From a virus, in IMG/VR virus record IMGVR_UViG_3300037113_000050, positions 1 through 52,744 of that record: a DNA stretch of 52,744 nucleotides; one strand, 5' to 3'. Of this stretch, positions 1 to 51,602 are shown one piece after another. The notes beneath the pieces are model-generated. The model worked only from the letters and a program-made list of their open reading frames with translations, was not told where the DNA came from and searched no databases. The position numbers and the translations under genes were made by a program. How positions within the stretch are numbered: the first letter of the stretch is position 1; each line of letters starts with the position of its first letter.

Positions 1-33
1 CCAACGCCGATTGTCTCCAGCAACTTGTTAGGC
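1..33 (+). repeat. Right half of an attC site, cut by the window edge
   Basis: The window opens inside an attC-like site. The right arm TTGTCTCCAGC (11-21) is followed by an R' box GTTAGGC (27-33), as in the complete sites further right. The left half is missing. If the molecule is circular it would be the partial site at 52713-52744, but the two arms are only weakly complementary. Confidence 0.6.
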
Positions 34-77
34 GGCTTTACGAGGCTCGCCAATCCGCTGCCGCTGCCAAAAAAGTG

Positions 78-314
78 ATGCAGGAAGCCGCTGAAAAACT
101 TGGACGCTGCGAAGGCTGCCACGGCGGCGATGACGAAGCAAGCGGGACTCGCTGCTACCAATCTCGCGAATTGGCGAAAGAAAAGTGGTGCGACATCTGC
201 AAAACCAAACTGCCGCTCTGGGAGGACTATCGGCACAAATCAAACATGGCTGGGGCTTCACTTCGGATGGTCTTAAAACACGCGCAATCTCTGCCGTCTA
301 ACGTAGAAAGCTGA
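78..314 (+). CDS. Cassette protein with two CxxC motifs (78 aa)
   Basis: First complete cassette ORF. A GTG at 75 directly precedes the ATG at 78, and the frame stays open leftwards through the attC right half, so a longer product read through the site is possible. The protein has CEGC near residue 12 and CDIC near residue 39, a likely zinc-binding pair, followed by a basic helix. Its last residues NVES and its stop are encoded by the next attC (R'' gives the N codon, the left arm AGCTGA gives the stop). No function is known; small Cys-rich proteins of this kind are common among integron cassettes and phage accessory genes. Confidence 0.6.
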   Translation: MQEAAEKLGRCEGCHGGDDEASGTRCYQSRELAKEKWCDICKTKLPLWEDYRHKSNMAGASLRMVLKHAQSLPSNVES

Positions 315-423
315 GCCACGGGCATCGTGAGCCAGCATAACCAAAGAAAGAAAATACAATGACTGAATCAAACATCCAAAACGACAAGGCGCAATGCCCG
401 TTGGCTCCGGCGACTTGTTCGGC
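296..423 (+). repeat. attC site B
   Basis: R'' GTCTAAC (296-302) and R' GTTCGGC (417-423) enclose inverted arms. Left GAGCCACGGGCATCG pairs with right CAATGCCCGTTGGCTC. The right arm has one extra T (TTGGCT against AGCCA), the kind of unpaired base that lets IntI recognise folded attC. Total 128 bp. A 26-codon ORF starts in the loop at 359. Confidence 0.85.
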
Positions 424-439
424 GAATCGAATTTTATGA
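359..439 (+). CDS. attC-spanning leader ORF (26 aa)
   Basis: ATG at 359 lies in the loop of attC B. The frame passes through the right arm and R' (peptide ..CPLAPATCSA..) and stops at TGA 437-439, overlapping the ATG of the next cassette ORF at 436 (ATGA). No Shine-Dalgarno is visible for the downstream gene, so termination-reinitiation is a plausible role. The same CPLAPATCSA frame is used at 52468 in a fused gene. Confidence 0.4.
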   Translation: MTESNIQNDKAQCPLAPATCSANRIL

Positions 440-717
440 AAACAGTCACAATACAAATCGGTAACTCGGACGATAAACTAACTCAAACCGAGTGGGCAGC
501 TTATGTGCTGATGATGCGGACAAACATCCTGCAACACTGCACCGCCGTCCAATTCTTCGGTGCTCCTGCAAACTGGGAGCGATGGCAAAACGTGGCGTGG
601 GTAGTCGTCTGCAAAGACGCCAAACTAGCCGCACTCAAAGCCGCAGTCACGGATGTGCGCTCAACTTTCAACCAAGACTCTGCCGCGTGGACAGAGGGTG
701 AGACTCAATTCGCCTAA
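436..717 (+). CDS. Cassette protein of unknown function (93 aa)
   Basis: Starts at the ATG overlapping the leader stop. An ATG at 394 in the same frame lies inside attC B and is a less likely start. The product is a compact mixed protein (MKTVTIQIGNSDDKLTQTEW..) with no motif I recognise. Its stop codon TAA is part of the following R'' box (GCCTAAC), so the cassette boundary provides the terminator codon. No promoter or SD precedes it. Confidence 0.6.
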   Translation: MKTVTIQIGNSDDKLTQTEWAAYVLMMRTNILQHCTAVQFFGAPANWERWQNVAWVVVCKDAKLAALKAAVTDVRSTFNQDSAAWTEGETQFA

Positions 718-760
718 CGAAAAAAGCTGAGCCACGGCCACTGTGACTCGGCGCAACCGA
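712..760 (+). repeat. attC left half without an adjacent right half
   Basis: R'' GCCTAAC (712-718) and left arm AGCTGAGCCACGGCC follow the 436 gene as in other sites. No matching right arm occurs within about 150 bp. The next right-half element is at 970-993 and its inner arm is not complementary (CTCATCGGCTC). Either the loop was expanded to about 280 bp or two sites recombined and lost material. Confidence 0.6.
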
Positions 761-769
761 AGAAAAACT

Positions 770-1168
770 ATGGCACAAGCAACATATCAAAAGCAGCGGG
801 TGATAGACGCCGCAACCAAAACGGCGACAAGCTATCGCGAGCAAATCATCGAACATTACCAGCGCGAAAAAGAGAGCAAAGAGAAACGAATCGTGGCCGC
901 GATGCAACCGCGCTGGTGGTGCGGCGCTTCGTGGTGCAACTGCGATGAGAAGCGGAAGGAACAGCGCTCATCGGCTCCGGCGATTTGTTCGGCAGCACGG
1001 GCGCGAATAGACGATTCTGTGCGGCAAGTCTGGATGGCATACCGAGACGCATCCGACGTGAGTGTGGACATGCTGACTGAACAAGACATGGAACTGTGGG
1101 GCATCGTGACTCGTCACGTGGCCATACAGGACAGGCTAAACGCCATGCTGCCGAACGACCGGAGCTAA
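770..1168 (+). CDS. Chimeric cassette protein read through an attC right half (132 aa)
   Basis: ATG at 770 follows an attC left half. The N-terminal part (residues 1-66) is helical and charged with a WWCGASWCNC cluster. Residues 67-75 (SSAPAICSA) are encoded by an attC right arm plus R' (970-993), in the same reading frame as CPLAPATCSA at two other sites. The C-terminal part (ARIDDSVRQVW.. to the end) resembles a separate small cassette protein. The likely origin is in-frame fusion of two cassettes across attC. The C-terminus LPNDRS and stop come from the next attC. A GTG at 743 is an alternative start. Confidence 0.5.
   Translation: MAQATYQKQRVIDAATKTATSYREQIIEHYQREKESKEKRIVAAMQPRWWCGASWCNCDEKRKEQRSSAPAICSAARARIDDSVRQVWMAYRDASDVSVDMLTEQDMELWGIVTRHVAIQDRLNAMLPNDRS
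970..993 (+). repeat. attC right half embedded in a coding region
   Basis: CGGCTCCGGCGATTT followed by R' GTTCGGC (987-993) matches the right halves of the complete sites but lies inside the 770-1168 ORF. No R'' occurs immediately to its left. Confidence 0.55.
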
Positions 1169-1261
1169 GGCATCCCGGACTAATGACTTATGAATGACCA
1201 AGAATCTTTACGGCAAACTGAAGGCGTCCAACCGGGATTGCCTTCAGCGACCTTGTTGGGC
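1150..1261 (+). repeat. attC site D
   Basis: R'' GCCGAAC (1150-1156) and R' GTTGGGC (1255-1261). Arms AGCTAAGGCATCCCGG and CCGGGATTGCCTTCAGC pair with one extra T on the right. The 112-bp site is nearly identical (about four differences) to attC K at 3268-3379. Confidence 0.87.
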
Positions 1262-1291
1262 ATAGCGATTAACGACATACAAATAAAATGA
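1190..1291 (+). CDS. attC-spanning leader ORF (33 aa)
   Basis: Starts at ATG 1190 in the attC D loop (MNDQESLRQTEGVQPG..) and reads through R'. Its TGA (1289-1291) overlaps the ATG of the next cassette ORF at 1288. The same leader in attC K (3308) is fused in frame to its downstream gene, which supports real translation of this frame. Confidence 0.42.
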   Translation: MNDQESLRQTEGVQPGLPSATLLGIAINDIQIK

Positions 1292-1506
1292 TAACTGCAA
1301 CCGAATGGCTAACTAGCCCCAACATCGCTCGGCGAGCAACCGAACAAGATTGCGTCGAATGGATAAAACAAATCCAAGCCGATGCGCTCCGTCACGCCGC
1401 CGACATAGCCGAGTCTTACGACAACGAATCTCATCATGGTAATGACACCATGACCAAACAAAACATCGCGTCAGAAATACGCGCCGCCGCCCTGACATCT
1501 TCGTGA
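1288..1506 (+). CDS. Cassette ORF of unknown function, 3' end probably replaced (72 aa)
   Basis: Begins at the ATG overlapping the leader stop (MITATEWLTSPNIARRATEQ..). The body looks like a small helical protein with DIAESYDNESHHGND. Its last residues are read out of frame from a fragment of the 3308 gene family that begins near 1488, and no attC follows its stop. The original C-terminus and attC were therefore probably lost in a fusion. The 5' non-coding sequence ATAGCGATTAACGACATAC (1262-1280) is identical to that of the cassette at 3959. Confidence 0.45.
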   Translation: MITATEWLTSPNIARRATEQDCVEWIKQIQADALRHAADIAESYDNESHHGNDTMTKQNIASEIRAAALTSS

Positions 1507-1675
1507 TAATCTCCGCGCCAGAAAACGCGACCGATGCGGAACTGCAATCACTGGCAGAAATCGAGGCAATGCAGAAAACCTACCTGTGGTCAAAAAAACA
1601 AGTGCGGCCCAACATAAAAGCTGAGCCGCCGCCTGTGAGCGGTGGTGAGGCGCAAAGGAAACATCCAAATGAGTA
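1494..1675 (+). pseudogene. Headless copy of the 3308 cassette gene
   Basis: From DIFVIISAPENATDAELQSL onward this fragment matches residues 39-76 of the gene at 3308-3598 with only a few changes (for example MAKTYIW against MQKTYLW). It has no start of its own, because the 5' part has been replaced by the 1288 ORF. The frame then runs through the left half of attC F to a TAA at 1673-1675. It is a decayed duplicate, not a functional gene by itself. Confidence 0.65.
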
Positions 1676-1728
1676 ACGACATCCAAACGGACAGCAATAA
1701 GGCGGTTGCCTCCGGCGATTGGTTAGAG
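1607..1728 (+). repeat. attC site F
   Basis: R'' GCCCAAC (1607-1613), left arm AGCTGAGCCGCCGCC, right arm AAGGCGGTTGCCTCCGGCG, R' GTTAGAG (1722-1728). The R' has a non-consensus last base. Total 122 bp. Confidence 0.78.
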
Positions 1729-1974
1729 CCAGCCGTCAAATCCATGAAGAACAGATTAAGTGATACAATCTTTTGTAGTGACATGGCTAAAATACCGAAT
1801 GCGCCGGACTGCTGTGCGTCCTGTCACGAGGACTGGAATGAAGGATATGACAACCCTGAATGGCGGGAACCGGATAAAACCATTCCGCACAAATACTGCC
1901 TATGCTGTGCGATGCGCTTATTTGCAGAAACGCAGGCTGGCTCTAACATAAAAGCTGACGCAAGCCGCACCTGA
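1669..1974 (+). CDS. Cassette protein with CxxC pairs, N-terminus encoded by attC (101 aa)
   Basis: ATG 1669 lies in the loop of attC F. The frame crosses the right arm and R' (..VASGDWLEP..) and continues into the cassette without a stop, so about 20 N-terminal residues are attC-derived. An internal ATG at 1744 could give a shorter product. The body has CCASC and CLCCA motifs separated by about 35 residues with H and D residues between, typical of a small zinc-binding protein. Function unknown. It ends inside attC G. Confidence 0.6.
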   Translation: MSNDIQTDSNKAVASGDWLEPAVKSMKNRLSDTIFCSDMAKIPNAPDCCASCHEDWNEGYDNPEWREPDKTIPHKYCLCCAMRLFAETQAGSNIKADASRT

Positions 1975-2049
1975 CGCATGAAACAACCACAAAACCGAAG
2001 CGAACAACTCGCAGCGCCAACCGTCATTGGCTCCGGCGACTTGATAGGC
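1941..2049 (+). repeat. attC site G (degenerate)
   Basis: R''-like CTCTAAC (1941-1947), AGCTGACGC left arm, right arm CATTGGCTCCGGCGACTT and R'-like GATAGGC (2043-2049, T to A in the core). Arm pairing is weaker than in its neighbours, so it may be a decayed or inactive site. Confidence 0.62.
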
Positions 2050-2058
2050 CACGGCTGA
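1978..2058 (+). CDS. attC-spanning leader ORF (26 aa)
   Basis: ATG 1978 is four bases after the stop of the preceding gene. It reads through the attC G right arm in the IGSGDL frame and stops at 2056-2058, 26 bases before the next ATG (2085). Coupling is less tight than at other sites. Confidence 0.3.
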   Translation: MKQPQNRSEQLAAPTVIGSGDLIGHG

Positions 2059-2084
2059 TAATCTGGACACACTAAACGACAAAT

Positions 2085-2294
2085 ATGAAAACAAACAAAC
2101 AAACGAAATCGGTCAAACCAATCCCGAAACCAAACTTTGTCAATAAATGCGAAGGCTGGTCTTTCGACTATGGCTTCGTCAGCGACATCGCCGAAGAATG
2201 CCGAAAGCTCGACGAGGACTTTGCGCCAAGCATGGAAGGCGTGGACGATGTGCTGAAAGTGCTTAAAAAACGCGGTCATATCGTAGTGGCCTAA
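2085..2294 (+). CDS. Cassette protein of unknown function (69 aa)
   Basis: Lys-rich N-terminus (MKTNKQTKSVKPIPKPN..) followed by an acidic helical region ending GVDDVLKVLKKRGHIVVA. The TAA stop is inside R'' of attC H. There is no SD, but AAACGACAAAT precedes the ATG. No family recognised. Confidence 0.6.
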   Translation: MKTNKQTKSVKPIPKPNFVNKCEGWSFDYGFVSDIAEECRKLDEDFAPSMEGVDDVLKVLKKRGHIVVA

Positions 2295-2388
2295 CATCCG
2301 AAGCTGAGCCATGACGCCACAAGAGACATCCAACCGCGAAGCGGAACTGACCGCGCCACCGCGCATTGGCTCCAGCGCCTTGTTCGGC
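2289..2388 (+). repeat. attC site H
   Basis: R'' GCCTAAC (2289-2295), left arm AGCTGAGCCATGACGC, right arm GCGCATTGGCTCCAGCG, R' GTTCGGC (2382-2388). The loop AACCGCGAAGCGGAACTGAC is shared with attC I. Confidence 0.87.
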
Positions 2389-2394
2389 GGATAA
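2311..2394 (+). CDS. attC-spanning leader ORF (27 aa)
   Basis: ATG 2311 in the left arm of attC H. It reads MTPQETSNREAELTAPPRIG.. through R' and stops with TAA 2392-2394, one base before the next ATG (2396). The arrangement TAA-T-ATG suits reinitiation. Confidence 0.4.
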   Translation: MTPQETSNREAELTAPPRIGSSALFGG

Positions 2395-2395
2395 T

Positions 2396-2608
2396 ATGAC
2401 AACTCAAAATACATGGCCAAACGGAGTCCGTCACGCGATGCACCAAAGCGACCACGAATCGTGGAACGCTCGAAACTATCCCGGCACAAGGCAACTCTGC
2501 TCAAAATGCGGCGAACCGACCGAACGATGCGAGGAAGATGCCATCTGGAACGATGACGGCGAACCTCTTTGTTCATCGTGCGCATATCCGCCTAACGACC
2601 GCGCATGA
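2396..2608 (+). CDS. Cassette protein with a zinc-ribbon pattern (70 aa)
   Basis: MTTQNTWPNGVRHAMHQSD.. followed by CSKCGEPTERCEED..EPLCSSC, a four-cysteine zinc-ribbon-like arrangement often seen in small accessory proteins. The C-terminus PPNDRA and stop are encoded by R'' and the left arm of attC I, and the TGA overlaps the next leader ATG (2605-2608, ATGA). The same PNDRA ending occurs in the 34-aa gene before the C5 methyltransferase at 44859. Confidence 0.62.
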   Translation: MTTQNTWPNGVRHAMHQSDHESWNARNYPGTRQLCSKCGEPTERCEEDAIWNDDGEPLCSSCAYPPNDRA

Positions 2609-2688
2609 GCCACGGCGCGAATAACGACGTGAACCGCGAAGCGGAACTGACAGCGCCCACGCGCATTGGCTCCGGCGACTTGTTAGGC
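2590..2688 (+). repeat. attC site I
   Basis: R'' GCCTAAC (2590-2596), left part GACCGCGCATGAGCCACGG, right arm GCGCATTGGCTCCGGCGAC, R' GTTAGGC (2682-2688). 99 bp. The left half is almost identical to the minus-strand attC in front of the C5 methyltransferase. Confidence 0.88.
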
Positions 2689-2700
2689 AGCAAAACGTGA
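2605..2700 (+). CDS. attC-spanning leader ORF (31 aa)
   Basis: ATG 2605 overlaps the stop of the preceding gene (ATGA). It reads MSHGANNDVN.. through the right arm as RIGSGDLLG and stops at 2698-2700, 15 bases before ATG 2716. The methyltransferase at 44862 begins with the counterpart of this leader (MSHAAPTTPA..IGVGSVRLLG), there fused in frame. Confidence 0.42.
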   Translation: MSHGANNDVNREAELTAPTRIGSGDLLGSKT

Positions 2701-2715
2701 ACTGACATAAAATCT

Positions 2716-3045
2716 ATGAAAGCAAAAGTCTCAAGTCTGTATCGGAACGGCAGAAACCTTCCGACAAACAAAGTATCCGGCACTGCCGAAGGCGACCTAA
2801 ACCTAGCCGTGAGCAAGCATCCTGTGACTGGACGTTGCACGCATGAAGCCTGCGTGCTGAATGATGACGGTCACTCACTTCTACCAGACCTGTATGATGT
2901 GACGTGCGTATCAATCTCCGCCGCCGGATTCCGGCTGCGCGGAATAGAAATAAAATCTGGTCGTGAGGTCTCACAAGAATGGTGGTGTATGCCAATGCTG
3001 CCTAACGTGGAGGTCAGCCACCGCCGGGCTGACGTAACCAAATGA
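2716..3045 (+). CDS. Cassette protein of unknown function (109 aa)
   Basis: The longest simple cassette protein (MKAKVSSLYRNGRNLPTNKV..). It looks like a beta-rich globular domain, with KHPVTGRCTHEACVLNDDGH in the middle and a C-terminal LPNVEVSHRRADVTK tail encoded entirely by attC J. Its TGA overlaps the next leader start (3042-3045). No family assigned. Confidence 0.62.
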   Translation: MKAKVSSLYRNGRNLPTNKVSGTAEGDLNLAVSKHPVTGRCTHEACVLNDDGHSLLPDLYDVTCVSISAAGFRLRGIEIKSGREVSQEWWCMPMLPNVEVSHRRADVTK

Positions 3046-3089
3046 AACTGACGCGGCCAACGGCGGTTGGCTGCACCGATTTGTTAGGC
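3000..3089 (+). repeat. attC site J
   Basis: R'' GCCTAAC (3000-3006), left arm GTCAGCCACCGCCG, right arm CGGCGGTTGGCTGCACCG with one extra T, R' GTTAGGC (3083-3089). 90 bp, with a very good palindrome. Confidence 0.88.
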
Positions 3090-3098
3090 GATATATGA
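3042..3098 (+). CDS. attC-spanning leader ORF with ATGA overlaps at both ends (18 aa)
   Basis: The start ATG (3042) overlaps the stop of the upstream cassette gene, and the stop TGA (3096-3098) overlaps the ATG of the downstream gene (3095). The 18 codons (MKLTRPTAVGCTDLLGDI) run through the attC right arm and R'. This is the clearest case of an attC leader linking translation of two successive cassettes. Confidence 0.48.
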   Translation: MKLTRPTAVGCTDLLGDI

Positions 3099-3286
3099 CA
3101 TACGAATCATGGGAAGATGAAATAGAACGTAGCGGCTGGTCTTTTGGACTCAGCACGCAAAAACAAATGCTGGCTGACTGGCGAACCGACCGCGCCGAGT
3201 GGCGTGCCGCTCTAAAAGAATCACGGCAAGAAATCGCCCGCCTGAAAGAAAGCTCGAAACCAATATCGCCTAACGCCGGGAGCTAA
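3095..3286 (+). CDS. Cassette protein, small helical (63 aa)
   Basis: MTYESWEDEIERSGWSFGL.. then a long amphipathic helix rich in E, R and W (ADWRTDRAEWRAALKESRQE..). It resembles short coiled-coil accessory proteins of phages. The C-terminal SPNAGS and stop come from attC K. Function unknown. Confidence 0.6.
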   Translation: MTYESWEDEIERSGWSFGLSTQKQMLADWRTDRAEWRAALKESRQEIARLKESSKPISPNAGS

Positions 3287-3379
3287 GGCATCCCGGACTA
3301 ATGACTTATGAATGACCAAGAATCTTTACGGAAAACTGAAGGCGTCCAACCGGGATTGCCTTCAGCGACCTTGTTGGGC
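3268..3379 (+). repeat. attC site K
   Basis: R'' GCCTAAC (3268-3274), arms AGCTAAGGCATCCCGG and CCGGGATTGCCTTCAGC, R' GTTGGGC (3373-3379). Near-duplicate of attC D, implying a recent cassette duplication. Confidence 0.88.
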
Positions 3380-3598
3380 CGCACGGTCGAATGGGAAATC
3401 GTCCTGAGCGGCGGACACCCTGACATCTTTGTGATAATCTCCGCGCCAGAAAACGCGACCGATGCGGAACTGCAATCACTAGCAGAAATCGAGGCAATGG
3501 CAAAAACCTACATCTGGTCGAAAAAACGAGTGCGGCCCAACGACGCGCTATGCCATCCCGCATCTGCGGTGCGGCATTCCACGGGCGCTACCGATTAA
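3308..3598 (+). CDS. Cassette protein with attC-encoded N-terminus (96 aa)
   Basis: The leader frame of attC K (MNDQESLRKTEGVQPGLPSA..) continues directly into the cassette: RTVEWEIVLSGGHPDIFVIISAPENATDAELQ.. The body looks like a small alpha/beta domain. It is the intact form of the family whose headless copy lies at 1494-1675. The C-terminal about 20 residues are read from attC L and may be non-functional tail. No function known. Confidence 0.6.
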   Translation: MNDQESLRKTEGVQPGLPSATLLGRTVEWEIVLSGGHPDIFVIISAPENATDAELQSLAEIEAMAKTYIWSKKRVRPNDALCHPASAVRHSTGATD

Positions 3599-3641
3599 AC
3601 GGACGCGGCCAATAGGGATTGGCATCAGCAACTTGTTAGAT
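3535..3641 (+). repeat. attC site L
   Basis: R'' GCCCAAC (3535-3541), left arm GCTATGCCATCCCGC, right arm TAGGGATTGGCATCAGC with an extra T, R' GTTAGAT (3635-3641). 107 bp. No ATG-started leader crosses this site. Confidence 0.78.
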
Positions 3642-3670
3642 GCCGAATCAACGACAACCAAATAAAAAAT

Positions 3671-3871
3671 ATGGGACAAGCCAAAAGACGCGGAACATAC
3701 GAGCAACGCCGCCAAGCGGCAATCGCACGAACAATGCCGACATCATCGCCTGAAACGATGAACGCGGCATATAAACAGCCACGCCGCCCCATGCGACGCG
3801 GGAACATGATAATGGCTGCCGCGATGCTGAGAGCAATGGCGTGGTCGGTGCCGCCCCGCCGAGGCATCTAA
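3671..3871 (+). CDS. Cassette protein, basic, MGQAKRRG-type (66 aa)
   Basis: Begins MGQAKRRGTYEQRRQAAIAR.., a start seen in many short basic proteins of phages and cassettes. The rest is Arg- and Met-rich. The high positive charge suggests nucleic-acid binding, but this is inference. The stop TAA lies in R'' of attC M. Confidence 0.6.
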   Translation: MGQAKRRGTYEQRRQAAIARTMPTSSPETMNAAYKQPRRPMRRGNMIMAAAMLRAMAWSVPPRRGI

Positions 3872-3958
3872 CGCTCAAGCTGAGCCAAGCCGCCAATGAA
3901 AACTCAAGAAAAACAGATGGACGCACGCGGCGGCTTTGGCTCCGGCGACTTGTTAGGC
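3866..3958 (+). repeat. attC site M
   Basis: R'' ATCTAAC (3866-3872), left arm AGCTGAGCCAAGCCGCC, right arm GGCGGCTTTGGCTCCGGCG with one extra T, R' GTTAGGC (3952-3958). 93 bp; among the best palindromes of the array. Confidence 0.88.
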
Positions 3959-3985
3959 ATAGCGATTAACGACATACGAATATGA
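3896..3985 (+). CDS. attC-spanning leader ORF (29 aa)
   Basis: ATG 3896 in the attC M loop. It reads MKTQEKQMDARGG.. through the right arm as FGSGDLLG, and its TGA (3983-3985) overlaps ATG 3982 of the next gene. Same layout as at attC B, D and J. Confidence 0.42.
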   Translation: MKTQEKQMDARGGFGSGDLLGIAINDIRI

Positions 3986-4173
3986 CATTCAAAAGATTCA
4001 GCAAACTTTGGGATACCTTTGTGACCAATCGGCCAAAGGCATCAAATCAAACTCCGCTTGCGGAACATAAGATGAACGAAGCGACATCAACCGCGCTCAT
4101 AGAATACGCGAACGGCGACAAATCAAAAATCAACGCAGTCCGCAAAAAGCTAAACCGCCGCCGCGATGCCTAA
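3982..4173 (+). CDS. Last clear cassette protein (63 aa)
   Basis: MTFKRFSKLWDTFVTNRPKA.. with a Lys/Arg-rich C-terminus KKLNRRRDA. The ATG overlaps the leader stop. Its TAA is inside an R''-like GCCTAAC (4168-4174), but no left arm, right arm or R' follows. This is therefore the end of the recognisable array, with a truncated or decayed last attC. Function unknown. Confidence 0.58.
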   Translation: MTFKRFSKLWDTFVTNRPKASNQTPLAEHKMNEATSTALIEYANGDKSKINAVRKKLNRRRDA

Positions 4174-4190
4174 CAACAGAATATGAGTCT

Positions 4191-4454
4191 ATGGCATCAT
4201 TCTTTAAACATCGTAACCAACGGCAGGACAAGCGGAAACGACAATTAGAAAAGTTGAAGCGCTGGCGAGAAGCAAAGGCGCGAAAGCATCAAGAAGCCAT
4301 TTCCGCCGGTTGGTTGCCTGAGCCACGTTTTATCCGGTCGTATCTCTACGAATACGGTATCCGCAATGTCGTCACCGGAGAAACCCATTGGCGAACACTG
4401 ACCAGCGCAAGGCAGGCGTCAAAGGCGTTGGGTCTGATAATGAAATTCATTTAA
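4191..4454 (+). CDS. Small basic protein at the array/phage boundary (87 aa)
   Basis: MASFFKHRNQRQDKRKRQLE.. is a highly basic coiled-coil-like N-terminus, followed by WLPEPRFIRSYLYEYGIRNV and a C-terminal helix. It follows the truncated R'' at 4168 and meets the minus-strand gene 4451-5065 tail to tail, with their stop codons sharing the bases TTAA. It could be the last cassette or a native phage gene. No family recognised. Confidence 0.55.
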   Translation: MASFFKHRNQRQDKRKRQLEKLKRWREAKARKHQEAISAGWLPEPRFIRSYLYEYGIRNVVTGETHWRTLTSARQASKALGLIMKFI

Positions 4455-5065
4455 TGCGGGATTGACGCTGGAGCCAGCACACCATTTTGCACCTGCCATC
4501 CAGCCTGATACTGTTTACACAGTTCTTGCATCGGCAGCAAATCCGCAGGCGTGTGCGCGTTCCATATCGGGCCACCGGCAATTTTCACAGTCGCCCATGC
4601 GGCGTTGCGCTGGAACCAGTTCGCGCCTAGGTCTTGCAGGTCTTGCAACAGTTGCCAGTCAGTTTCCGCTTTAGACTTGAGCTGGCAGCAATACCCCTTG
4701 TCGTGCCGTATCCATGCGGCGGAATATTGGCCTATCTTCGGTAGGAACGCATCCAACCAATCGCCACCATCGCTATCCGTCATACCGCTGCGGTAGTCCG
4801 TCGTCCAGACCGGCAGATTCATCATGTCGTCAAGTGTTCCAGCACTAGACGGGGGGATGATTTCAAACGTGCCGTCTGGATTCAGAGCGGCGAACGGCAA
4901 CGTGATGATCCAGTCGTCCGGCGCTGTTTGCAGCGTGTCTGGATACGCCATTGTCGCCGACGTATAGACGAATTTCTGGCACGGATTCCCGGCAACCAGC
5001 CGCTGTCCCTTTATGGCAACAGTGGCTTTCGCCATTCGTTTATCGGCTGATTGCCGGAAGTTCAT
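4451..5065 (-). CDS. Hypothetical phage protein, last late gene (204 aa)
   Basis: Last gene of the long leftward late operon. AAAGGATTT upstream of the ATG is a reasonable SD inside the end of the preceding gene. The sequence is Trp-rich with patches such as LPVWTTDYRSGM and ANWFQRNAAWATVKIAGG, suggesting a beta-rich fold, and has no signal peptide. Its position after the lysis genes suggests a lysis or host-interaction role, but nothing in the sequence identifies it. Confidence 0.6.
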   Translation of the reverse strand: MNFRQSADKRMAKATVAIKGQRLVAGNPCQKFVYTSATMAYPDTLQTAPDDWIITLPFAALNPDGTFEIIPPSSAGTLDDMMNLPVWTTDYRSGMTDSDGGDWLDAFLPKIGQYSAAWIRHDKGYCCQLKSKAETDWQLLQDLQDLGANWFQRNAAWATVKIAGGPIWNAHTPADLLPMQELCKQYQAGWQVQNGVLAPASIPH

Positions 5066-5068
5066 TGG

Positions 5069-5707
5069 TCAAAATCCTTTCGACCATCCAACCCACAGGT
5101 GGTAAATATCCCGCCCGACGGTGGCCGTGCCCTGCCACATTTCATACATCAGGCCGACATTCACCGCCCCACCCAACGCCTGGCATACCCCAAAATCCAC
5201 GCCAGCTCCCTCACGGGTCACTGCGGAGCCGCCAGAGCCAAGCGATGCGTTCATTGGGGTGCCTACGCCCGCAATCACCAGCGGGGTCATGGTGACGCCG
5301 GGCAGGCCATACGACGCCAGCGGGTGGGTTGGCAACTGGATCTTGATGTCCGCCGAAATCATTTGCCAGTTCCGGTTCCAATAATCCACGCCGACGCCCG
5401 CACCGACGTAACGGGTCATGTCGTAAAATGCCATGAGTCCGCCGCCGAATTGCTCCTTGGTCTTGCCGCTGGCCGGCGAGTAGCTCCCGTAAGCGAATGC
5501 ACCGACGTTGGTCACATTCTCAACGTCCTTCCACACGTTCACAATCGGCTCGTAAAACGGATTGCCGTTGGTGGAAAGTGCGTTGGTCACAACGATGTCC
5601 TGCCCGTGCGCCCGGCATGAATTGCCGATGCTCCACAGAAGCAGACAGGCGACGATAAAGATGGCCAGTCCGCAGGACACGTCCGCTTTTTTGAGGGGGT
5701 GTTTCAT
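5069..5707 (-). CDS. Outer-membrane-barrel-like protein (212 aa)
   Basis: The start chosen (5707) lies just after the stop of the small TM gene; a longer start at 5743 would overlap it. Residues 10-30 form a hydrophobic stretch that could act as signal or anchor. The remainder alternates short hydrophobic strands and glycines (VGAFAYGSY, GGGLMAFYD, YVGAGVGVDYW, AVNVGLMYEMW) and ends in an aromatic ..WVGWSKGF, a typical last-strand signature of Gram-negative outer-membrane barrels. It could affect the outer membrane at lysis or block superinfection; both are inferences. Confidence 0.55.
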   Translation of the reverse strand: MKHPLKKADVSCGLAIFIVACLLLWSIGNSCRAHGQDIVVTNALSTNGNPFYEPIVNVWKDVENVTNVGAFAYGSYSPASGKTKEQFGGGLMAFYDMTRYVGAGVGVDYWNRNWQMISADIKIQLPTHPLASYGLPGVTMTPLVIAGVGTPMNASLGSGGSAVTREGAGVDFGVCQALGGAVNVGLMYEMWQGTATVGRDIYHLWVGWSKGF

Positions 5708-36373: not shown

Positions 36374-37252
36374 TCATGTAAGGCTCAACGGGATGATGGC
36401 GAGACTGGCGGAATCGACCGTAATGCTTCCCGCAGCAGTCACCGCAGTGGTTAAAATTTGCAATGCAAGGATGTCGTTGAGCGCAAGACTTGAAACGAAA
36501 AACGGAAGCACGATGTCAATCGTGGGCACGGTTGCAGTCGTCAGAATACCAGACGCCCGATACGTCACCGCCAGAGTCCCAACCGTGTTGTTCGTTCGTT
36601 GAACCTGAACCGTGATGACTTTGGAATTGGCATAGGTTACTCCAGTGAAGTTCAAGGAACATCTTGCCATGACAAGATACAGCCCGGCAGCGGGAGCCGT
36701 CAGCGTCATTCCAGTGATGGTCGTCGCCACTGAAAGGTAAGCGCCAGTTCCCGCCAGCGACAAGCCGATGGCTTCCAGATTTACGACGGTTCCATTTTGA
36801 CCTAGACCAAGCGCTGCTAGCGCACCTGACTTTGTGGAAACTCCGGTACCACCTTGAGAAATCCCAATCGGAAACGTAAGCGGTGGTTGAGTTCCAGCCG
36901 GTGAAACCTGTGCCCCGGAAACGATGGTATTTCCGGTCTGATTGTTCCCCGTGTAGTTAAGGTAAGTCAGGATCGCCTGCGTGTTTCCAGTTTTGGACTT
37001 GACGGAGAAGTATCCAGCATAGGCAATGTAAACATTCTGGCCGACGATCATCCACTGGTTGTTGTCGAATGTGAGATTGACGGTGTCAGCAGCCTGCGCG
37101 GGAACGGTGAAGTTTGCCGTAGTGAGAATCGAAAATGAGTTTGCTCCGTTGGTTCCAGATGATCCCGCCGACCCCGCCGCGCCGGGCAGTCCCGGAATTG
37201 CAACAATTTCCGGCGACGGACAACCGCAGTTTCTTGAAAGGGTGTTTGCCAT
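36374..37252 (-). CDS. Fibre-like protein with a short collagen-like stretch (292 aa)
   Basis: Residues about 20-37 contain six G-x-y triplets (GLPGAAGSAGSSGTNGAN). Two beta-rich domains follow, with TNF/C1q-like strand patterns (YIAYAGYFSVKSKTGNTQA.., GLYLVMARCSLNFTGVTYA..). A Cys-containing N-terminus (RNCGCPSPE) may anchor it. First gene of the leftward late operon, divergent from terminase. Probably a tail or head fibre that forms trimers. Confidence 0.6.
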   Translation of the reverse strand: MANTLSRNCGCPSPEIVAIPGLPGAAGSAGSSGTNGANSFSILTTANFTVPAQAADTVNLTFDNNQWMIVGQNVYIAYAGYFSVKSKTGNTQAILTYLNYTGNNQTGNTIVSGAQVSPAGTQPPLTFPIGISQGGTGVSTKSGALAALGLGQNGTVVNLEAIGLSLAGTGAYLSVATTITGMTLTAPAAGLYLVMARCSLNFTGVTYANSKVITVQVQRTNNTVGTLAVTYRASGILTTATVPTIDIVLPFFVSSLALNDILALQILTTAVTAAGSITVDSASLAIIPLSLT

Positions 37253-37305
37253 ACCCGTTATATTTCTACTGGATTTGGCTCAATGTCAACTCTATATTGC
37301 CCTTT
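37253..37305. promoter_or_regulatory. Divergent intergenic region, fibre operon / terminase
   Basis: 53 bp that must contain start signals for both directions. On the minus strand a perfect TTGACA -35 is present but the nearest TATAAC lies 21 bases on, too far for a standard sigma70 promoter. On the + strand TATATT sits nine bases before the terminase ATG, with only a poor -35 (TGGATT). Upstream promoters inside genes are also possible. Confidence 0.3.
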
Positions 37306-39090
37306 ATGGCAGCTACTTTTTCAAAATACGGCTACGAATGGCCCGCCGGAACCGACCCCCTGGCCATCGAATTTCAGATGATCCGATTGCCGGATGGAAA
37401 AATCAAGACACCCCACTACCTCGCCGCGCACAAACTGCTCTGGCCGGAGGATGAACAGCACCGCTGGTTCGTGTTGGGACTGAAAACCATCGTCGAGAAC
37501 AAGGTTACTGTCCTGCTTGGCTGCGCCTCTTCAGGGAAAACCTACATCATGGCAATCCACGCCCTGATTGATTTCTTCTGCTTCCCAGAAACGTCACTCG
37601 CCCTCGTGTCGTCAACCGACATTCGTTCCCTTGAATTGAAGGTGTGGGGTCGGTTTAAAACCCTGTTCAACCGGGCGCGCCGGAATTATCCATGGCTGCC
37701 CGGCTACGCGCTGGATTCAAAAATGACCATCACGCCCGATGACATTGACGGGGATAACCAAGTCGCACGAGAGCTAAATCGCGGCGTGGTGTGTGTTCCC
37801 TGTGTCAGCGGTGGCCGCTTCATCGGCATGGGCAAGTTTCAAGGGGCCAAGCCTCCGCACTCACCCGGCAAGGCAGACGGCCTGCTCAAGCACTACGGCG
37901 ACGAGGCGGCGGTCATGCAATCCAGTTTCCTTGACGCCTACACCAATTGGACGGTGTCGCCGGGATTCAAGGGGGTCATGTGCGGAAACCCGACGGATAT
38001 TTCGGATCCGCTCTGTGTCGCGGCGGAGCCGGTCGGCGGCTGGGATGAGTTCATTGACACCGGCAAGACACAGGAATGGATTTCGCAATGGTACAAGGCG
38101 CATGTGGTCGCATTTGATGGCCGGGATACCCCGAACAATGATGATCCAAAAAAGATCTATCCCTACCTCGTGTCCGCTGACTGGGTGGAGTCCATGAAAC
38201 AGACACACGGCGAAGACTCGTGGCAGTTTTTCCAGCAGGCCATCGGCAAGCCATCGCGTGGCATGGTCAGCAACCGAGTCATCACCATCGGCCTGTGCGA
38301 GCGCAACCTGGCATTTGAAGACCCAATCTGGCGTGATTCCACCTTTACCGACATCTACGCCCTTGACCCGGCATACGCCGGCGGTGACCGTTGCGTCGGT
38401 GGTAAAATCCGCATCGGCACCTCGATTGACGGCAAGCAGATCGTTGAAGTCGGAATCCCCGAAACCCTCCCCATCCGGCTAAATGTCGGTCTGGAACCGG
38501 AAGAGCAAATCGCACGACTGGTCTTTGACCGGATGAAAGCCGATGGCATTCCTGCCGAGAATGGCTTCTACGATTCGTTTGGACGCGGCACCCTTGGCTT
38601 CGCCTTTGCCAAACTCTTCGGCGCGTCCTGCCCGGTGCCGGTGGACTCCGGCGCGCGCCCCACATCCCGGCCAGTCCGGTTTGATCTGTTCGTGGATGAT
38701 GGCCATGGCGGGAAACGTCTCAAGCGCTGCGATGAACACTACTCCAAGTTCGTTACTGAAATGTGGTTTTCCACCCGCGAAGCCATCGAGTCAGGCCAAA
38801 TCCGCAGCCTGCCTCGCACCGTCGCCAATGAAGGCCAGTTGCGAATGTTTGAAATCGTTTCCGGCAACCGCGTTGAGGTTGAAACCAAGGACGACATGAA
38901 GCAGCGCATCCGCAAGTCCCCCGACCTTTACGACTGGTTCGCCATCGCCATCGAAGGCGCACGCCAGCGCGGTTTCAAAATCCAACGCATCGGTGCCGCC
39001 ATCGAAGCCAAGCGCAAACCCGACTGGCTCGACGGCCACTTCAAAGAACTTGCCGAACTGGGCAAATCCAGACAGTTGCAGAACGGTTAG
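37306..39090 (+). CDS. terL: Terminase large subunit (594 aa)
   Basis: The start at 37306 (MAATFSKYGYEWPAGTDPLA..) is preferred; an open frame from 37135 overlaps the divergent fibre gene. Walker A GCASSGKT (residues 72-79), LVSSTDIRSLELKVWGRF, HYGDEAAVMQSS (Walker B region), GNPTD and the nuclease-domain Asp in ALDPAYAGGDR are visible. It powers DNA packaging and cuts the concatemer. It is on the strand opposite to the late genes and meets a minus-strand gene tail to tail with overlapping stops (TTAG, 39087-39090). No small subunit could be assigned. Confidence 0.85.
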   Translation: MAATFSKYGYEWPAGTDPLAIEFQMIRLPDGKIKTPHYLAAHKLLWPEDEQHRWFVLGLKTIVENKVTVLLGCASSGKTYIMAIHALIDFFCFPETSLALVSSTDIRSLELKVWGRFKTLFNRARRNYPWLPGYALDSKMTITPDDIDGDNQVARELNRGVVCVPCVSGGRFIGMGKFQGAKPPHSPGKADGLLKHYGDEAAVMQSSFLDAYTNWTVSPGFKGVMCGNPTDISDPLCVAAEPVGGWDEFIDTGKTQEWISQWYKAHVVAFDGRDTPNNDDPKKIYPYLVSADWVESMKQTHGEDSWQFFQQAIGKPSRGMVSNRVITIGLCERNLAFEDPIWRDSTFTDIYALDPAYAGGDRCVGGKIRIGTSIDGKQIVEVGIPETLPIRLNVGLEPEEQIARLVFDRMKADGIPAENGFYDSFGRGTLGFAFAKLFGASCPVPVDSGARPTSRPVRFDLFVDDGHGGKRLKRCDEHYSKFVTEMWFSTREAIESGQIRSLPRTVANEGQLRMFEIVSGNRVEVETKDDMKQRIRKSPDLYDWFAIAIEGARQRGFKIQRIGAAIEAKRKPDWLDGHFKELAELGKSRQLQNG

Positions 39091-43863: not shown

Positions 43864-43933
43864 AGCGTCCGGGTGGCACATTGTAGCTTTCAACGCTCTG
43901 CGCTCCATCGTTTTTGGAAAATAGGTCGTTCAT
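43862..43933 (-). CDS. Possible 23-aa ORF after the methyltransferase
   Basis: ATG overlaps the methyltransferase stop (ATGA) and the ORF (MNDLFSKNDGAQSVESYNVP..) runs into the plus-strand terminator. Begins like some phage MxDLFxxN peptides and like the attC leaders with MND. It may be the leader of a lost next cassette. Weak support. Confidence 0.25.
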   Translation of the reverse strand: MNDLFSKNDGAQSVESYNVPPGR

Positions 43934-44862
43934 TTTACGTTCGAGGCGGCGCTGTCGGCGTCTTGCCTCAAGTCTGCGTTAGGGGTCCTTGCCATCATCC
44001 CAATCAGAGCGGCGGCGACTTGCGGCACGATGGCGTTGCCGAGTCCTTTAAGTCTGTCCACCCGGTTGGGTAGCCCATTAACCACTCGACAAATTGCGGG
44101 TTCAGGCTCCCACCGATTTCCGCATTGAGCGGTTTCGTGTTCCTCACCATTTGCGACGGGGCGCCGTTGTTCTTCGCGTCCTGCGCCGTTGGCGTCGGCC
44201 ACATTTTCACGGCGAGAGTCAGCGGCGGCGTTGAGACTTTCCCCGCGTCCCGGCGCCGCGTCCACGATTCTTCCGTTTCGTCCGTCGTCTTGCCCGCTCG
44301 CGGCGTGGGCCACAATCCATACTCGGTTTCTTCGGTGTCTGGCATCTGTGGCGCAAGCTGGAATAGCAACCGGCCACGCGGAGTAGCCGAGACTTTCCAA
44401 GTCAGCAAGCACACGGTCGAGTTCCATTGTGATGATTCCAGGCACATTTTCACCAAGCACCCAGCGGGGTTTGGCCTCATCAATAACGCGGAGCATTTCA
44501 GGCCAGAGCGCACGGTCATCTTCCGCGCCTCTGCGCTTCCCGGCGAGACTGAATGGCTGGCAAGGAAATCCGCCTGTGAGTAGCCAAGTTCCATTGAAGG
44601 GTTTTCCGTCAAATTTGCAGATATCATCATAGATTGGAATGTCCGCGAAGTTTTTCCGCAGGACTTTTTGAGCGTAGGCGTCTTTCTCCACGAAGGCCAC
44701 GGTTTGCACTTCATTCATTCGCGCAGCCAGGGCGAAGCCGCCGATGCCACTGAAAAGGTCTAGGTGGGTTCGACGGACACCTAACAAGCGCACGGAGCCA
44801 ACGCCTATTGGCGTCGTCAGTCCGCTATCGCGGGCGGGAGTCGTTGGTGCGGCGTGGCTCAT
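43930..44862 (-). CDS. C5-cytosine DNA methyltransferase with attC-encoded N-terminus (310 aa)
   Basis: Motif I LDLFSGIGGFALAA, motif IV GGFPCQPFSLAG with the catalytic Cys, motif VI ENVPG, motif VIII RRNRVWIVA and motif X RLKGLGNAIVPQVAA are all present. The start at 44862 overlaps the stop of the 34-aa gene (ATGA). The first about 28 residues (MSHAAPTTPA..IGVGSVRLLG) are encoded by the minus-strand attC at 44779-44877. The C-terminus TPNADLR is encoded by an R''-like box (43978-43984), as in cassette genes. Probably protects phage DNA from restriction. The target sequence is unknown. A GTG at 44916 is a less likely start. Confidence 0.82.
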   Translation of the reverse strand: MSHAAPTTPARDSGLTTPIGVGSVRLLGVRRTHLDLFSGIGGFALAARMNEVQTVAFVEKDAYAQKVLRKNFADIPIYDDICKFDGKPFNGTWLLTGGFPCQPFSLAGKRRGAEDDRALWPEMLRVIDEAKPRWVLGENVPGIITMELDRVLADLESLGYSAWPVAIPACATDARHRRNRVWIVAHAASGQDDGRNGRIVDAAPGRGESLNAAADSRRENVADANGAGREEQRRPVANGEEHETAQCGNRWEPEPAICRVVNGLPNRVDRLKGLGNAIVPQVAAALIGMMARTPNADLRQDADSAASNVK

Positions 44863-44877
44863 GCGCGGTCGTTCGGC
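44779..44877 (-). repeat. attC site N, in front of the methyltransferase
   Basis: On the minus strand: R'' GCCGAAC (44877-44871), left part GACCGCGCATGAGCCACGCC, right arm TAGGCGTTGGCTCCG with one extra T against the left arm, R' GTTAGGT (44785-44779). 99 bp, the same size as attC I and nearly identical to it in the left half. It lies 40 kb from the array and on the opposite strand. Confidence 0.85.
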
Positions 44878-44963
44878 AGCTCTTGCCGGTATCGGCAGAC
44901 ACAGTGAGAGTTGCACGCTATGAAACTCATCGCTGATTCTTCATCCTTGACGCGATAAATCAT
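44859..44963 (-). CDS. Small Cys-containing protein between DUF1376-type and methyltransferase genes (34 aa)
   Basis: MIYRVKDEESAMSFIACNSH.. CVCRYRQELPNDRA. Its ATG overlaps the stop of the 44960 gene and its TGA overlaps the methyltransferase ATG (both ATGA). The ending LPNDRA is encoded by the R'' and left arm of attC N, as in the cassette protein at 2396. It may be a genuine short gene or the shortened remnant of a cassette. Confidence 0.5.
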   Translation of the reverse strand: MIYRVKDEESAMSFIACNSHCVCRYRQELPNDRA

Positions 44964-45652
44964 CGCATTGCCTCTGATAACATTTCTGCCGATGTCATTT
45001 TGGACATTGGCTTGTGTTGTTCTGGTTGGTTATTCCGTTGCTGCTGTTGCTTAGGTGCTCCATCCGCTCTCCACCATGCCTGACAGCGTCGTGCATATGC
45101 CTGCCAATTCGTCTTGCCTTTCCAGTTGTCTGCTTCTGCTGCCAGGAATTTGTCCTTTGCGTAGAATTCTGCCATCAAGCTACACTGCGGACTTTGGCAA
45201 TATTTCCACCATTCTTCCCATGTTGGATGCTCCGCGAATTGCGGTGGAGCGCTCTCTCTCTCTTCTGGAGATGGAGATGGAGATGGAGTGTTGCCATTTG
45301 GTTGCAAGCATGGCTGGTTGCCGTTTGGTTGCAAGGGTGGTTGAAGGGTGGTTGAACCACGCTTGGCAGCGGAATGCAATCCGCCGATGCGCGATTTATC
45401 GCGCCAGACCGCTTGTTTATTGCGTTCCTCTTCCATCCTGCCATTTTTCCCATCGGTGAATTTTGAAAGAACACTTTCCGAAACCGTTACACCCGCAATG
45501 CGTTTGAGCGCGCAGGAATCCGACGGGATGAAACCGTTTCCCCATGCAAAACAAAGCAGTCTAATGTATGCCCCCACTTCGACGGCGGTCATGCCTACCG
45601 TTCCGCCAATGAAGTCGTCTGGATAGAATTGGAAAGCGGGTGATGATTTCAT
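44960..45652 (-). CDS. DUF1376-type replication protein (230 aa)
   Basis: N-terminal FYPDDFIGGTVGMTAVEVGA YIRLLCFAWGNG and IPSDSCALKRIAGV match the DUF1376 domain, found in phage replication initiators and helicase-loading proteins. A Pro/Ser/Gln-rich linker (100-130) leads to a C-terminal helical domain with WEEWWKYC and WQAYARRCQAWW, as in some loader proteins. Located next to DnaB, which supports a loader role. ATGA overlaps at both ends. Confidence 0.65.
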   Translation of the reverse strand: MKSSPAFQFYPDDFIGGTVGMTAVEVGAYIRLLCFAWGNGFIPSDSCALKRIAGVTVSESVLSKFTDGKNGRMEEERNKQAVWRDKSRIGGLHSAAKRGSTTLQPPLQPNGNQPCLQPNGNTPSPSPSPEERESAPPQFAEHPTWEEWWKYCQSPQCSLMAEFYAKDKFLAAEADNWKGKTNWQAYARRCQAWWRADGAPKQQQQRNNQPEQHKPMSKMTSAEMLSEAMR

Positions 45653-46980
45653 GGTGTGGTGTAGCTTTCTGGAATGTCTGGCGTCACAATGCGCCGATTT
45701 TCAAACACTGAAAATTGACCCTCAAAACTCATTTCGCAGTTGCCTACGTCGCCGTCGCGCTGTTTGGCGACAATAAGGACGGCGTCACGTCCGCCGTTAG
45801 TGTCGCGGTCGCGGTGTAGCAGACCGATACAGTCCGCATCCCGCTCAATCTGCCCAGAGTCCGCCAGGTCGCTGATCCTCGGCAACCGGGGTGTTTTCTC
45901 CTTCACGCTTTCCCGGTTCAACTGGGCCAGCGTTAGGAGCGCGCAGCCGGTTTCTTTCGCGATAGCCATGAGCGCGCCGGATACTTGCCCAACGGCGTAG
46001 GTTTTCTTCTCAAAATTTCCAACCTCTTTGATTTTTTGCAGGTAGTCAATCACCACAAGCTTGACACCTTCCGATTTCACCATCCGCCGGATCGTGCCGC
46101 AGATGCGTGCGCTGTCCGTGCCACTGATCGAGTCCATAAAGAATATCGGAGACGAATTGAGGAGCGCGTTAAAATGGGTGAATTTTGACATGTCTTGTTC
46201 CGAAAATCTTCCCGCCCGCAGGTCGCCCAACGGAAACCGGCAGTGATTGGCCAGCATCCGCCGGCAGAGCGCGTGAATGGACATTTCAAGGGTGATTACC
46301 AGCGTTGGGATTTTGTCCGTGAGACAGACACGGTGAATAATAGTCGTGGCCAGCGCGGTCTTTCCTTGTGACGGTCTCGCCCCGATGATGGTCTGTTCGC
46401 CGGCCTGCAAACCGTCCGTCAGGTTGTCGAATTGGTCAAGCCCAGTCACAAGGCCAGATTTCCGCCCCTTCAAAGCGAAACGCTCCTCAAGGTGGTTAAT
46501 CAGCATGTGCGACGCATTTCCACCACCGACAACCAAGTCATTTGACCTGATTTCACGGATGTTTTGCAGCTTGGTTTCAACCGACGAAATAATCTCTTCC
46601 GCTGATTCCTGATTTTCGTAAACGCTGGCCGCAGCTTCTGAACACGCCGCCATTGTTTTGCGGAGCATGTAAGCCTCGCTCACCCTGTCCGCGTAGGACT
46701 GAAAATTTGAAACCAGAACAGCCACCGAGTCGCATTCGTCCAGATACACCATGTCATGGACTTTGTCGTTTACGGTTATCAAATCAATCGGCTCGCCAGC
46801 CTGCCGCATGGCAATCAAAGCTAGATAAGTCTGCCGATTATTTAGATCGTAAAAAACATCTCCGCCGGCCTTAAATCTTGAAATGCACTCATCTGCAAGA
46901 TTGGGATTTTGCAGGATGCAACCAATGATTGCCCGCTCAAATTCAGGCTCGTTTGGGGGTAGTTTGTCAGGTTCGCTCAT
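45649..46980 (-). CDS. dnaB: Replicative DNA helicase, DnaB family (443 aa)
   Basis: N-terminal DnaB-type domain (residues 5-115, EFERAIIGCILQNPNLADEC..), linker, and RecA-type core with Walker A GARPSQGKT (near residue 200), TLEMSIHALCRRML, Walker B VVIDYLQKI, TLAQLNRESVKEKTPRL and DLADSGQIERDAD. Unwinds the fork 5' to 3'. No polymerase or primase is encoded, so the phage presumably uses host enzymes. Coupled to the neighbours on both sides. Confidence 0.9.
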   Translation of the reverse strand: MSEPDKLPPNEPEFERAIIGCILQNPNLADECISRFKAGGDVFYDLNNRQTYLALIAMRQAGEPIDLITVNDKVHDMVYLDECDSVAVLVSNFQSYADRVSEAYMLRKTMAACSEAAASVYENQESAEEIISSVETKLQNIREIRSNDLVVGGGNASHMLINHLEERFALKGRKSGLVTGLDQFDNLTDGLQAGEQTIIGARPSQGKTALATTIIHRVCLTDKIPTLVITLEMSIHALCRRMLANHCRFPLGDLRAGRFSEQDMSKFTHFNALLNSSPIFFMDSISGTDSARICGTIRRMVKSEGVKLVVIDYLQKIKEVGNFEKKTYAVGQVSGALMAIAKETGCALLTLAQLNRESVKEKTPRLPRISDLADSGQIERDADCIGLLHRDRDTNGGRDAVLIVAKQRDGDVGNCEMSFEGQFSVFENRRIVTPDIPESYTTP

Positions 46981-51416: not shown

Positions 51417-51602
51417 TTACGTTAGACGCTGGTCTATTCCTTTTGCATCGCACAGGTCGGCACCGCGCAGGTCGGCACCGAACAGGTCGGCACCGCACAG
51501 GGCGGCATCGTTTTTTAATGCTGTGCAAACCGCTTTTGAGATATTTTCAAAATCACCCTCAAAAAGCAGATTTCCAAAAATGGATTTGATTTGGATATTC
51601 AT
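51417..51602 (-). CDS. Short pentapeptide-repeat protein (61 aa)
   Basis: MNIQIKSIFGNLLFEGDFEN.. followed by ALCGADLFGADLRGADLCDA, four A(D/N)Lxx units encoded by 15-bp tandem repeats (51452-51500). Full pentapeptide proteins form a right-handed beta helix; this one has only about one turn. It may be a DNA-mimic relative or a fragment. Confidence 0.62.
   Translation of the reverse strand: MNIQIKSIFGNLLFEGDFENISKAVCTALKNDAALCGADLFGADLRGADLCDAKGIDQRLT

Follow-up and report, generated by a model that had tools for sequence, protein, structure and literature searches.

Integrons in the literature examined, and those compared here, carry cassette genes that point in the direction of their attC recombination sites and are classically read from a promoter near attI. 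For phages, both virulent and temperate, arrays of attC sites with methyltransferase cargo have been described before (Qi et al. 2023, PMC9892861). That study reports 17 clusters of attC sites lacking integrases (CALINs) among 10,705 phage genomes, gives Tetrasphaera phage TJE1, Polaribacter phage P12002L, and Vibrio phage Va_90-11-286_p16 as examples, and states that five of six tested phage attC sites were recombined by IntI1; the integrase-bearing cases in it were temperate or cryptic phages, some of them derived from a host integron. Folding and excision of attC are known to be favoured on the lagging-strand template (PMC5371416). Here, we analyzed an integron-type cassette array in the IMG/VR record IMGVR_UViG_3300037113_000050, a linear viral contig of 52,744 bp, which was taken whole as the window. 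The cassette genes of this array are inverted relative to their attC sites. Viral arrays and Verrucomicrobiota chromosomal arrays that share this attC type have opposite cargo orientations.

attC sites and their polarity

An initial annotation of the window had described eleven attC-like sites, ten of them within positions 1-4174. We searched both strands, as that annotation had suggested, with a covariance model (R1) that was run with filters off and whose training set consisted solely of bacterial sites, 24 attC from chromosomal arrays (alignment A6). As listed in Table 1, ten full sites were found within 1-4174 (E 2.5e-14 to 7e-4) and one at 44779-44877 (E 8.6e-9), matching the eleven described sites one for one; nothing else in the 52.7 kb was better than E 0.02. 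A structural scan without sequence training recovered eight of these sites in the 4.2 kb and one elsewhere. With a position weight matrix trained on bacterial sites, the sites scored 23-41, the highest score in 465 kb of shuffled phage DNA being 15. Pairing was present in 93.2% of cells over 107 viral sites, against 70.9% in shuffles and at most 44% when slid, and the covariation score was 0.528 compared with 0.146 in shuffles, which bears out the folding-dependent covariation described initially. The window thus holds an integron cassette array of the CALIN kind, with attC sites having R boxes, complementary arms, and an extrahelical base, and with single small plus-strand open reading frames (ORFs) occupying the intervals. 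Its sites do lie at 1-4174 as first described, but its extent was underestimated; the array starts at about 52476, after a small helix-turn-helix gene, continues through one further cassette, and is cut by both contig ends, each of which falls inside attC sequence. The half-sites at the two contig ends do not pair together, so the array in this record is incomplete. Within it, attC 1150-1261 and 3268-3379 are 96% identical, and a cassette fragment occurs at both 1483-1613 and 3411-3541 (91%) with different spacing; the duplicated attC and fragment appear to be a trace of shuffling or repeated capture.

Since attC is nearly symmetric, its strand was read from two features, the extrahelical base of the L'' arm and the TAACAA that follows R''. 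As a control, a class 1 integron with a minus-strand array was read on the plus strand, and it showed a right-arm extra base and TAACG...TTGTTA, the same as the window. The one-base surplus in the right arm of the window's sites in the plus reading, as noted initially, is real. Model R1 recovered the known strand of the class 1 sites, and it assigned those of the window's array to the minus strand. Furthermore, attC sites were divergent from intI, which is the standard geometry, in every Verrucomicrobiota intI locus giving a match to the model and in 33 of 34 viral loci with sites up- or downstream of a complete intI. Single-strand DNA folding energies of the window's sites clearly favoured neither strand, and the strand assignment is based on the extrahelical base, the covariance model, and the intI geometry. 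The initial annotation had read the sites with plus polarity (RYYYAAC as R'' and GTTRRRY as R'); this reading was overturned by the class 1 control and the model. A variant in which the sites are plus-strand attC with an unusual bulge was likewise ruled out by the class 1 control and the intI-linked geometry. In this array, the extra base assigns the role of recombinogenic "bottom" strand to the plus strand.

Inverted cargo in viral arrays

The array sites of the window are on the minus strand and the cassette ORFs are all on the plus strand; therefore, the genes are inverted relative to attC. Throughout the array, codon log-odds under a phage-gene model were higher for the plus frames than for the overlapping antisense frames. 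A gene in the attC direction, which is the usual although not strictly defining feature of a cassette, was not found in the window.

Related arrays, which the initial annotation had proposed to look for, were found in many viral contigs and in Verrucomicrobiota chromosomes. A search with an attC core pattern yielded 20 loci in viruses and 68 in bacteria, most of the bacterial ones from Verrucomicrobia subdivision 3 and Opitutaceae; the compared loci were picked through one attC pattern and IntI similarity and are not a random sample. Cargo orientation was analyzed without a codon model by comparing the longest ORF per strand of each inter-attC interval with Pfam. In viral arrays, 99 opposite-strand ORFs matched 19 families and 99 same-strand ORFs matched one (DpdA), whereas in bacterial arrays 86 same-strand ORFs matched 35 families and 86 opposite-strand ORFs matched one (an IS transposase). 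Leave-one-out codon models similarly assigned 42 viral intervals to the strand opposite to attC and 6 to the same strand; in the control with pieces of known genes, 941 calls were right and 63 wrong (94% of decided calls). Two other guides were abandoned. AT/GC skew was dropped, the class 1 integron itself having negative AT skew, and longest-ORF and tblastn strand calls were replaced by the Pfam counts on both strands, being too noisy because undetected attC sites within intervals yield matches on both strands.

The viral arrays are rich in DNA methyltransferases, Mom, Dam, and PAPS reductase; their opposite-strand families comprised C5-methylase (4), N6/N4-methylase (4), PAPS reductase (4), Dam (3), Mom, GNAT, helix-turn-helix, and others. 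The window also has a cassette-like C5 cytosine methyltransferase gene away from the array (Table 1). It is 51-52% identical to cassette genes of two phage integrons (L243 and L246), and its PF00145 match spans the first half of the profile only. In the region 43930-44916, the plus-polarity attC falls in the N-terminal part of the long methyltransferase ORF, and a left half-site-like sequence, CCCTAACGCAGACTTGAGGCA, lies near the 3' end of the gene.

Integron integrases and the array end

No match to the tyrosine recombinase family PF00589 was found anywhere in the 52.7-kb window, so that a linked intI is absent; with the terminase and other phage genes present, this agrees with the initial description of a phage-borne attC array without an integrase. 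A linked intI is present in relatives. In G042, whose large terminase is 64% identical to that of the window, an IntI gene at 3183-4151 adjoins the array, and G027 holds another. TIGR02249 was the best family by far for both (256 and 264 bits for G042 and G027, respectively; cut-off 265), tyrosine recombinase active-site residues were invariant in the IntI alignment (A1), and the best solved relative of the phage IntI was the Vibrio integron integrase 2a3v. These matches place both enzymes in the IntI family. Scans of viral contigs gave many more intI genes, with arrays on the standard side of intI. Among the array-bearing records, a terminase of one profile was present in 15 of 40 tested and a portal in 3. 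The host had initially been named as the source of integrase; this is possible, but it is not the only source, as G042 and many viral contigs encode IntI.

In the IntI tree, most viral enzymes fell into one clade (36 rows, 32 viral, support 100/99), which also includes the IntI of a provirus record from Geminisphaera colitermitum TAV2 and a small number of sequences from metagenome-assembled genomes (MAGs). Some viral IntI fall outside this clade, so the viral enzymes do not form a single lineage, and IntI appears from these sequences to have been exchanged between hosts and phages. Among annotated phages in INPHARED, no IntI had more than 60% identity to the G042 enzyme. Several individual loci were also recorded. 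In the TAV2 provirus of IMG/VR (L149/L261), the clade IntI lies directly behind a methyltransferase gene, and this strain is a possible experimental system. L072 (PLGF01000075.1) is an apparently chromosomal Limisphaerales integron with a phage-type IntI and standard cassettes. In L263 (IMGVR_UViG_3300027811_000005), a viral intI has plus-polarity attC downstream, resembling the flipped intI of Treponema. Virus Rctr41k (L326, KX853513) encodes at 4680-5678 an IntI-like integrase with 39.7% identity to the G042 enzyme, behind same-strand small genes.

A motif, YNAACARTGATTANNC...TTCGTATAT, recurs upstream of viral intI, 33 to 66 nt ahead of the start codon. The conserved motif at the array end of the window (about 4163-4188) differs from it. 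The window array ends with GCCTAACAACAGAATATGA, followed by the gene for an 87-aa basic protein; the junction CCTAACAAYAGAATATGA and this gene recur in G022 and G032, which are one phage from two samples and have CCTAACAATAGAATATGA as the counterpart of the array end. We regard this end as a putative primary site, either attI or attG-like. In G023, the attI-like motif is present and a recombinase gene is absent. Thus, the arrays of the window, G022/G032, and G023 look as if they had kept the primary site and had either lost intI or never had it.

A sign of cassette sharing was observed in two otherwise different phages, in which an 879-bp block (G029:2082-2958 and G033:60934-61812) is 98% identical, comprises two attC sites and three small genes, and ends at attC cores. 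A general test of breakpoints at cassette ends in phage pairs placed 3 of 22 ends within 12 nt, which is about chance; the pairs were too few, and one was exact.

Other features of the window

The contig is that of a tailed phage, having a terminase and phage replication genes, and a family scan also found an exonuclease VIII-like gene. At 51445-51504, 15-bp tandem repeats lie within a small minus-strand ORF and look pentapeptide-repeat-like by eye. The Rfam scan of the window at the gathering threshold gave zero matches.

Table 1. Features of the window. E values and bit scores of attC sites are from covariance model R1; log-odds are codon log-odds under the phage-gene model.
Feature	Position	Strand	Remarks
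attC	296-423	-	62.3 bits, E 3.1e-12
attC, 96% identical to 3268-3379	1150-1261	-	E 1.7e-9; repeat D5
attC	1607-1729	-	E 1.9e-6
attC, degenerate	1940-2049	-	E 7e-4
attC	2289-2388	-	E 8.3e-13
attC	2590-2688	-	E 2.5e-14
attC	3000-3089	-	E 2.2e-11; plus (bottom) strand folds into full hairpin, z -4.36
attC	3268-3379	-	E 5.2e-9
attC	3535-3641	-	E 2.1e-6
attC	3866-3958	-	E 3.3e-10
attC, 5' side of C5-methyltransferase gene, opposite to the gene	44779-44877	+	E 8.6e-9
attC half-site, contig start	4-38	-	repeat D1
attC half-site (R' side)	714-740	-	repeat D7; E 0.19 only
attC half-site (R'' side), within an ORF	964-995	-	repeat D1
attC half-site opening the array after the helix-turn-helix gene	52476-52506	-	repeat D1, 97% identical to 394-428; E 0.022
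attC half-site, contig end	52715-52744	-	seen directly in sequence; repeat D12
Cassette ORF	436-717	+	log-odds +9.8 (394-717 frame); antisense ORFs negative
Cassette ORF	770-1168	+	log-odds +7.7 (743-1168 frame)
Cassette ORF	1288-1506	+	log-odds +2.4
Cassette ORF	1669-1974	+	log-odds +3.5 (1642-1974 frame)
Cassette ORF	2085-2294	+	log-odds +13.2
Cassette ORF	2396-2608	+	occupies inter-site gap; weak zinc-ribbon-like Pfam matches under cut-off
Cassette ORF	2716-3045	+	occupies inter-site gap; log-odds -3.9, antisense -19.7
Cassette ORF	3095-3286	+	log-odds +2.2
Cassette ORF	3671-3871	+	occupies inter-site gap
Cassette ORF nearest the attI-like end	3982-4173	+	log-odds +8.3
attI-side array end, GCCTAAC/AACAGAATATGA, single core without hairpin partner	4163-4188	-	same boundary in G022 and G032
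87-aa basic protein gene in place of intI	4191-4454	+	G022/G032 have 49% identical homologs directly behind the array
Small helix-turn-helix gene (Cro/CI-like, fold by eye only), promoter side of array	52295-52471	+	log-odds +11.3
Large terminase	37135-39090	+	phrog_2, 5.4e-11; marks the contig as phage
C5 cytosine DNA methyltransferase, cassette-like	43930-44778	-	PF00145, 5.4e-40
DnaB-like helicase	45649-46980	-	PF03796, 2.2e-63

Discussion

We consider it probable that the window array is a phage-adapted integron of the Verrucomicrobiota attC type, whose cargo is inverted and read toward attI and whose intI has been lost or is supplied in trans. IntI, attI, and attC would keep the standard geometry, and only the cassette genes would be turned around relative to attC. 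Transcription of the cassettes would start at a phage promoter, run toward attI, and proceed into intI and phage genes further downstream in the arrays that have them. IntI would fold and cut the attC bottom strand, which is the coding strand in such arrays, and new cassettes would be inserted at the attI-side end, which should be the 3' end of the transcription unit because the cassettes are read toward attI. If the replication fork moves co-directionally with transcription, the coding strand would be the lagging template, which would favour attC folding and excision (PMC5371416). In the window phage, an active array would depend on an integrase in trans, since intI is missing from its usual place and a small gene stands there instead; the enzyme could come from the host or a co-infecting phage. 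Array cargo would represent a swappable set of small genes, which in the relatives is enriched in DNA-modification and anti-restriction functions, and the window's own cassettes may serve such accessory purposes.

Beyond this locus, we lean towards the view that phages, mostly of Verrucomicrobiota-type hosts, maintain an integron kind of their own, with a phage-dominated IntI clade and attI, a separate pool of inverted cassettes read from a phage promoter toward attI/intI, a coding strand that is also the recombinogenic strand, and arrays serving as swappable anti-restriction or accessory loci. A host cassette would lie antisense when placed in such a phage, as would a phage cassette in a host; if so, the two kinds are compatible in recombination but not in expression, and the two pools would be kept separate. 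The arrays suggest that phages use integrons to swap DNA modification genes, probably against host restriction, and they are a possible route for cassette movement between phages and hosts. A large group of phage arrays with the reverse arrangement indicates that recombination polarity and expression polarity of cassettes can be uncoupled. It also offers a natural test of why the two are coupled in bacteria, where the promoter Pc and the position of the attC bottom strand on the leading or lagging template are to be considered (PMC5371416).

Several points weigh against this interpretation. The window's cassette proteins had no known family above the Pfam cut-off; recombination of its sites is a prediction. 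As the contig is linear and breaks off within the array, it may lack some cassettes or even an intI that lies elsewhere. Codon strand calls were noisy at high GC, and the intI-linked set gave 21 opposite versus 13 same. One end of the block shared by G029 and G033 is at an R'' core, which standard exchange at R' does not leave. Finally, some Limisphaerales chromosomal integrons (L072/L148) combine a same-clade IntI with cassette genes in the standard orientation. This last observation excluded phage IntI alone as the cause of inversion; because a same-clade chromosomal enzyme has standard cassettes, inversion is not a property of the enzyme and goes with the phage setting.

The array could alternatively be an ordinary phage CALIN, that is, a segment of a host chromosomal integron acquired by the phage with standard cassettes and awaiting a host integrase. 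Such CALINs are already on record in phages (PMC9892861), the attC type is that of Verrucomicrobia subdivision 3 chromosomal integrons, and the site at 296-423 is almost a copy of a site next to a chromosomal intI of a Limisphaerales MAG (L034/L143). However, related phages have their own IntI and attI, and cassette genes are inverted in viral arrays and not in host arrays; thus, viral arrays are not simple copies of host segments, and we regard this origin as unlikely. That the window holds a relic, with decaying site remnants no longer recombined, is rather improbable. Several half-sites, one degenerate site, and the lack of an integrase in the window are in line with decay, but most sites retain R boxes, arms, and the extrahelical base, covariation across phages is strong, and the 98% identical cassette block occurs in two unrelated phages.

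The consistent presence of attC bottom-strand sequence in the mRNA of viral arrays would also be expected if the hairpins acted on RNA, as elements that process, terminate, or stabilize a polycistronic phage transcript, with recombination being secondary and inversion arising since the bottom-strand form is transcribed. We find this very unlikely, as the R-box core and the attI/intI linkage are conserved as in DNA-recombining integrons, and compensatory changes preserve pairs as in bacterial attC. Fusion of a bacterial array to a phage during assembly, for which the repeats and the contig ends inside the array might speak, is the kind of error that we hardly credit here; a different phage, recovered from two samples, has the same junction of array end and 87-aa gene, and the same arrangement is present in many independent viral contigs.

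attG sites are sites of integrase-mediated cassette insertion outside integrons. There, a single core ahead of an ordinary gene takes up cassettes, and the array end of the window could by analogy be such a site. Regarding the phage CALINs described by Qi et al., the accessible part of that study has no mention of inverted cargo (PMC9892861), unlike what is observed in the window. Model R1 gave at most one weak match on each of TJE1, P12002L, and MW202573, the single one on TJE1 being on the strand of the neighbouring gene; because the model is specific to the Verrucomicrobiota type, other phage CALINs cannot be judged by it. In the open literature (subscription journals and preprints being outside the search), we found no report of inverted cargo or of a phage-dominated IntI clade. 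Judged from the sequences and this search, phage CALINs and prophage integrons are already known, and the inverted cargo and the phage-dominated IntI clade are apparently new. The sedentary chromosomal integrons of Verrucomicrobiota (Limisphaerales and Opitutaceae) share the attC type, the IntI family, and the intI-attI-attC geometry with the phage arrays, but differ in that their cassette genes follow the attC direction, away from intI. Treponema integrons (PMC3607928) resemble the phage arrays in that cassette genes and intI point the same way. However, in Treponema intI itself is flipped and reads toward attI, whereas in the phages intI is standard and it is the cassette genes whose orientation to attC is reversed.

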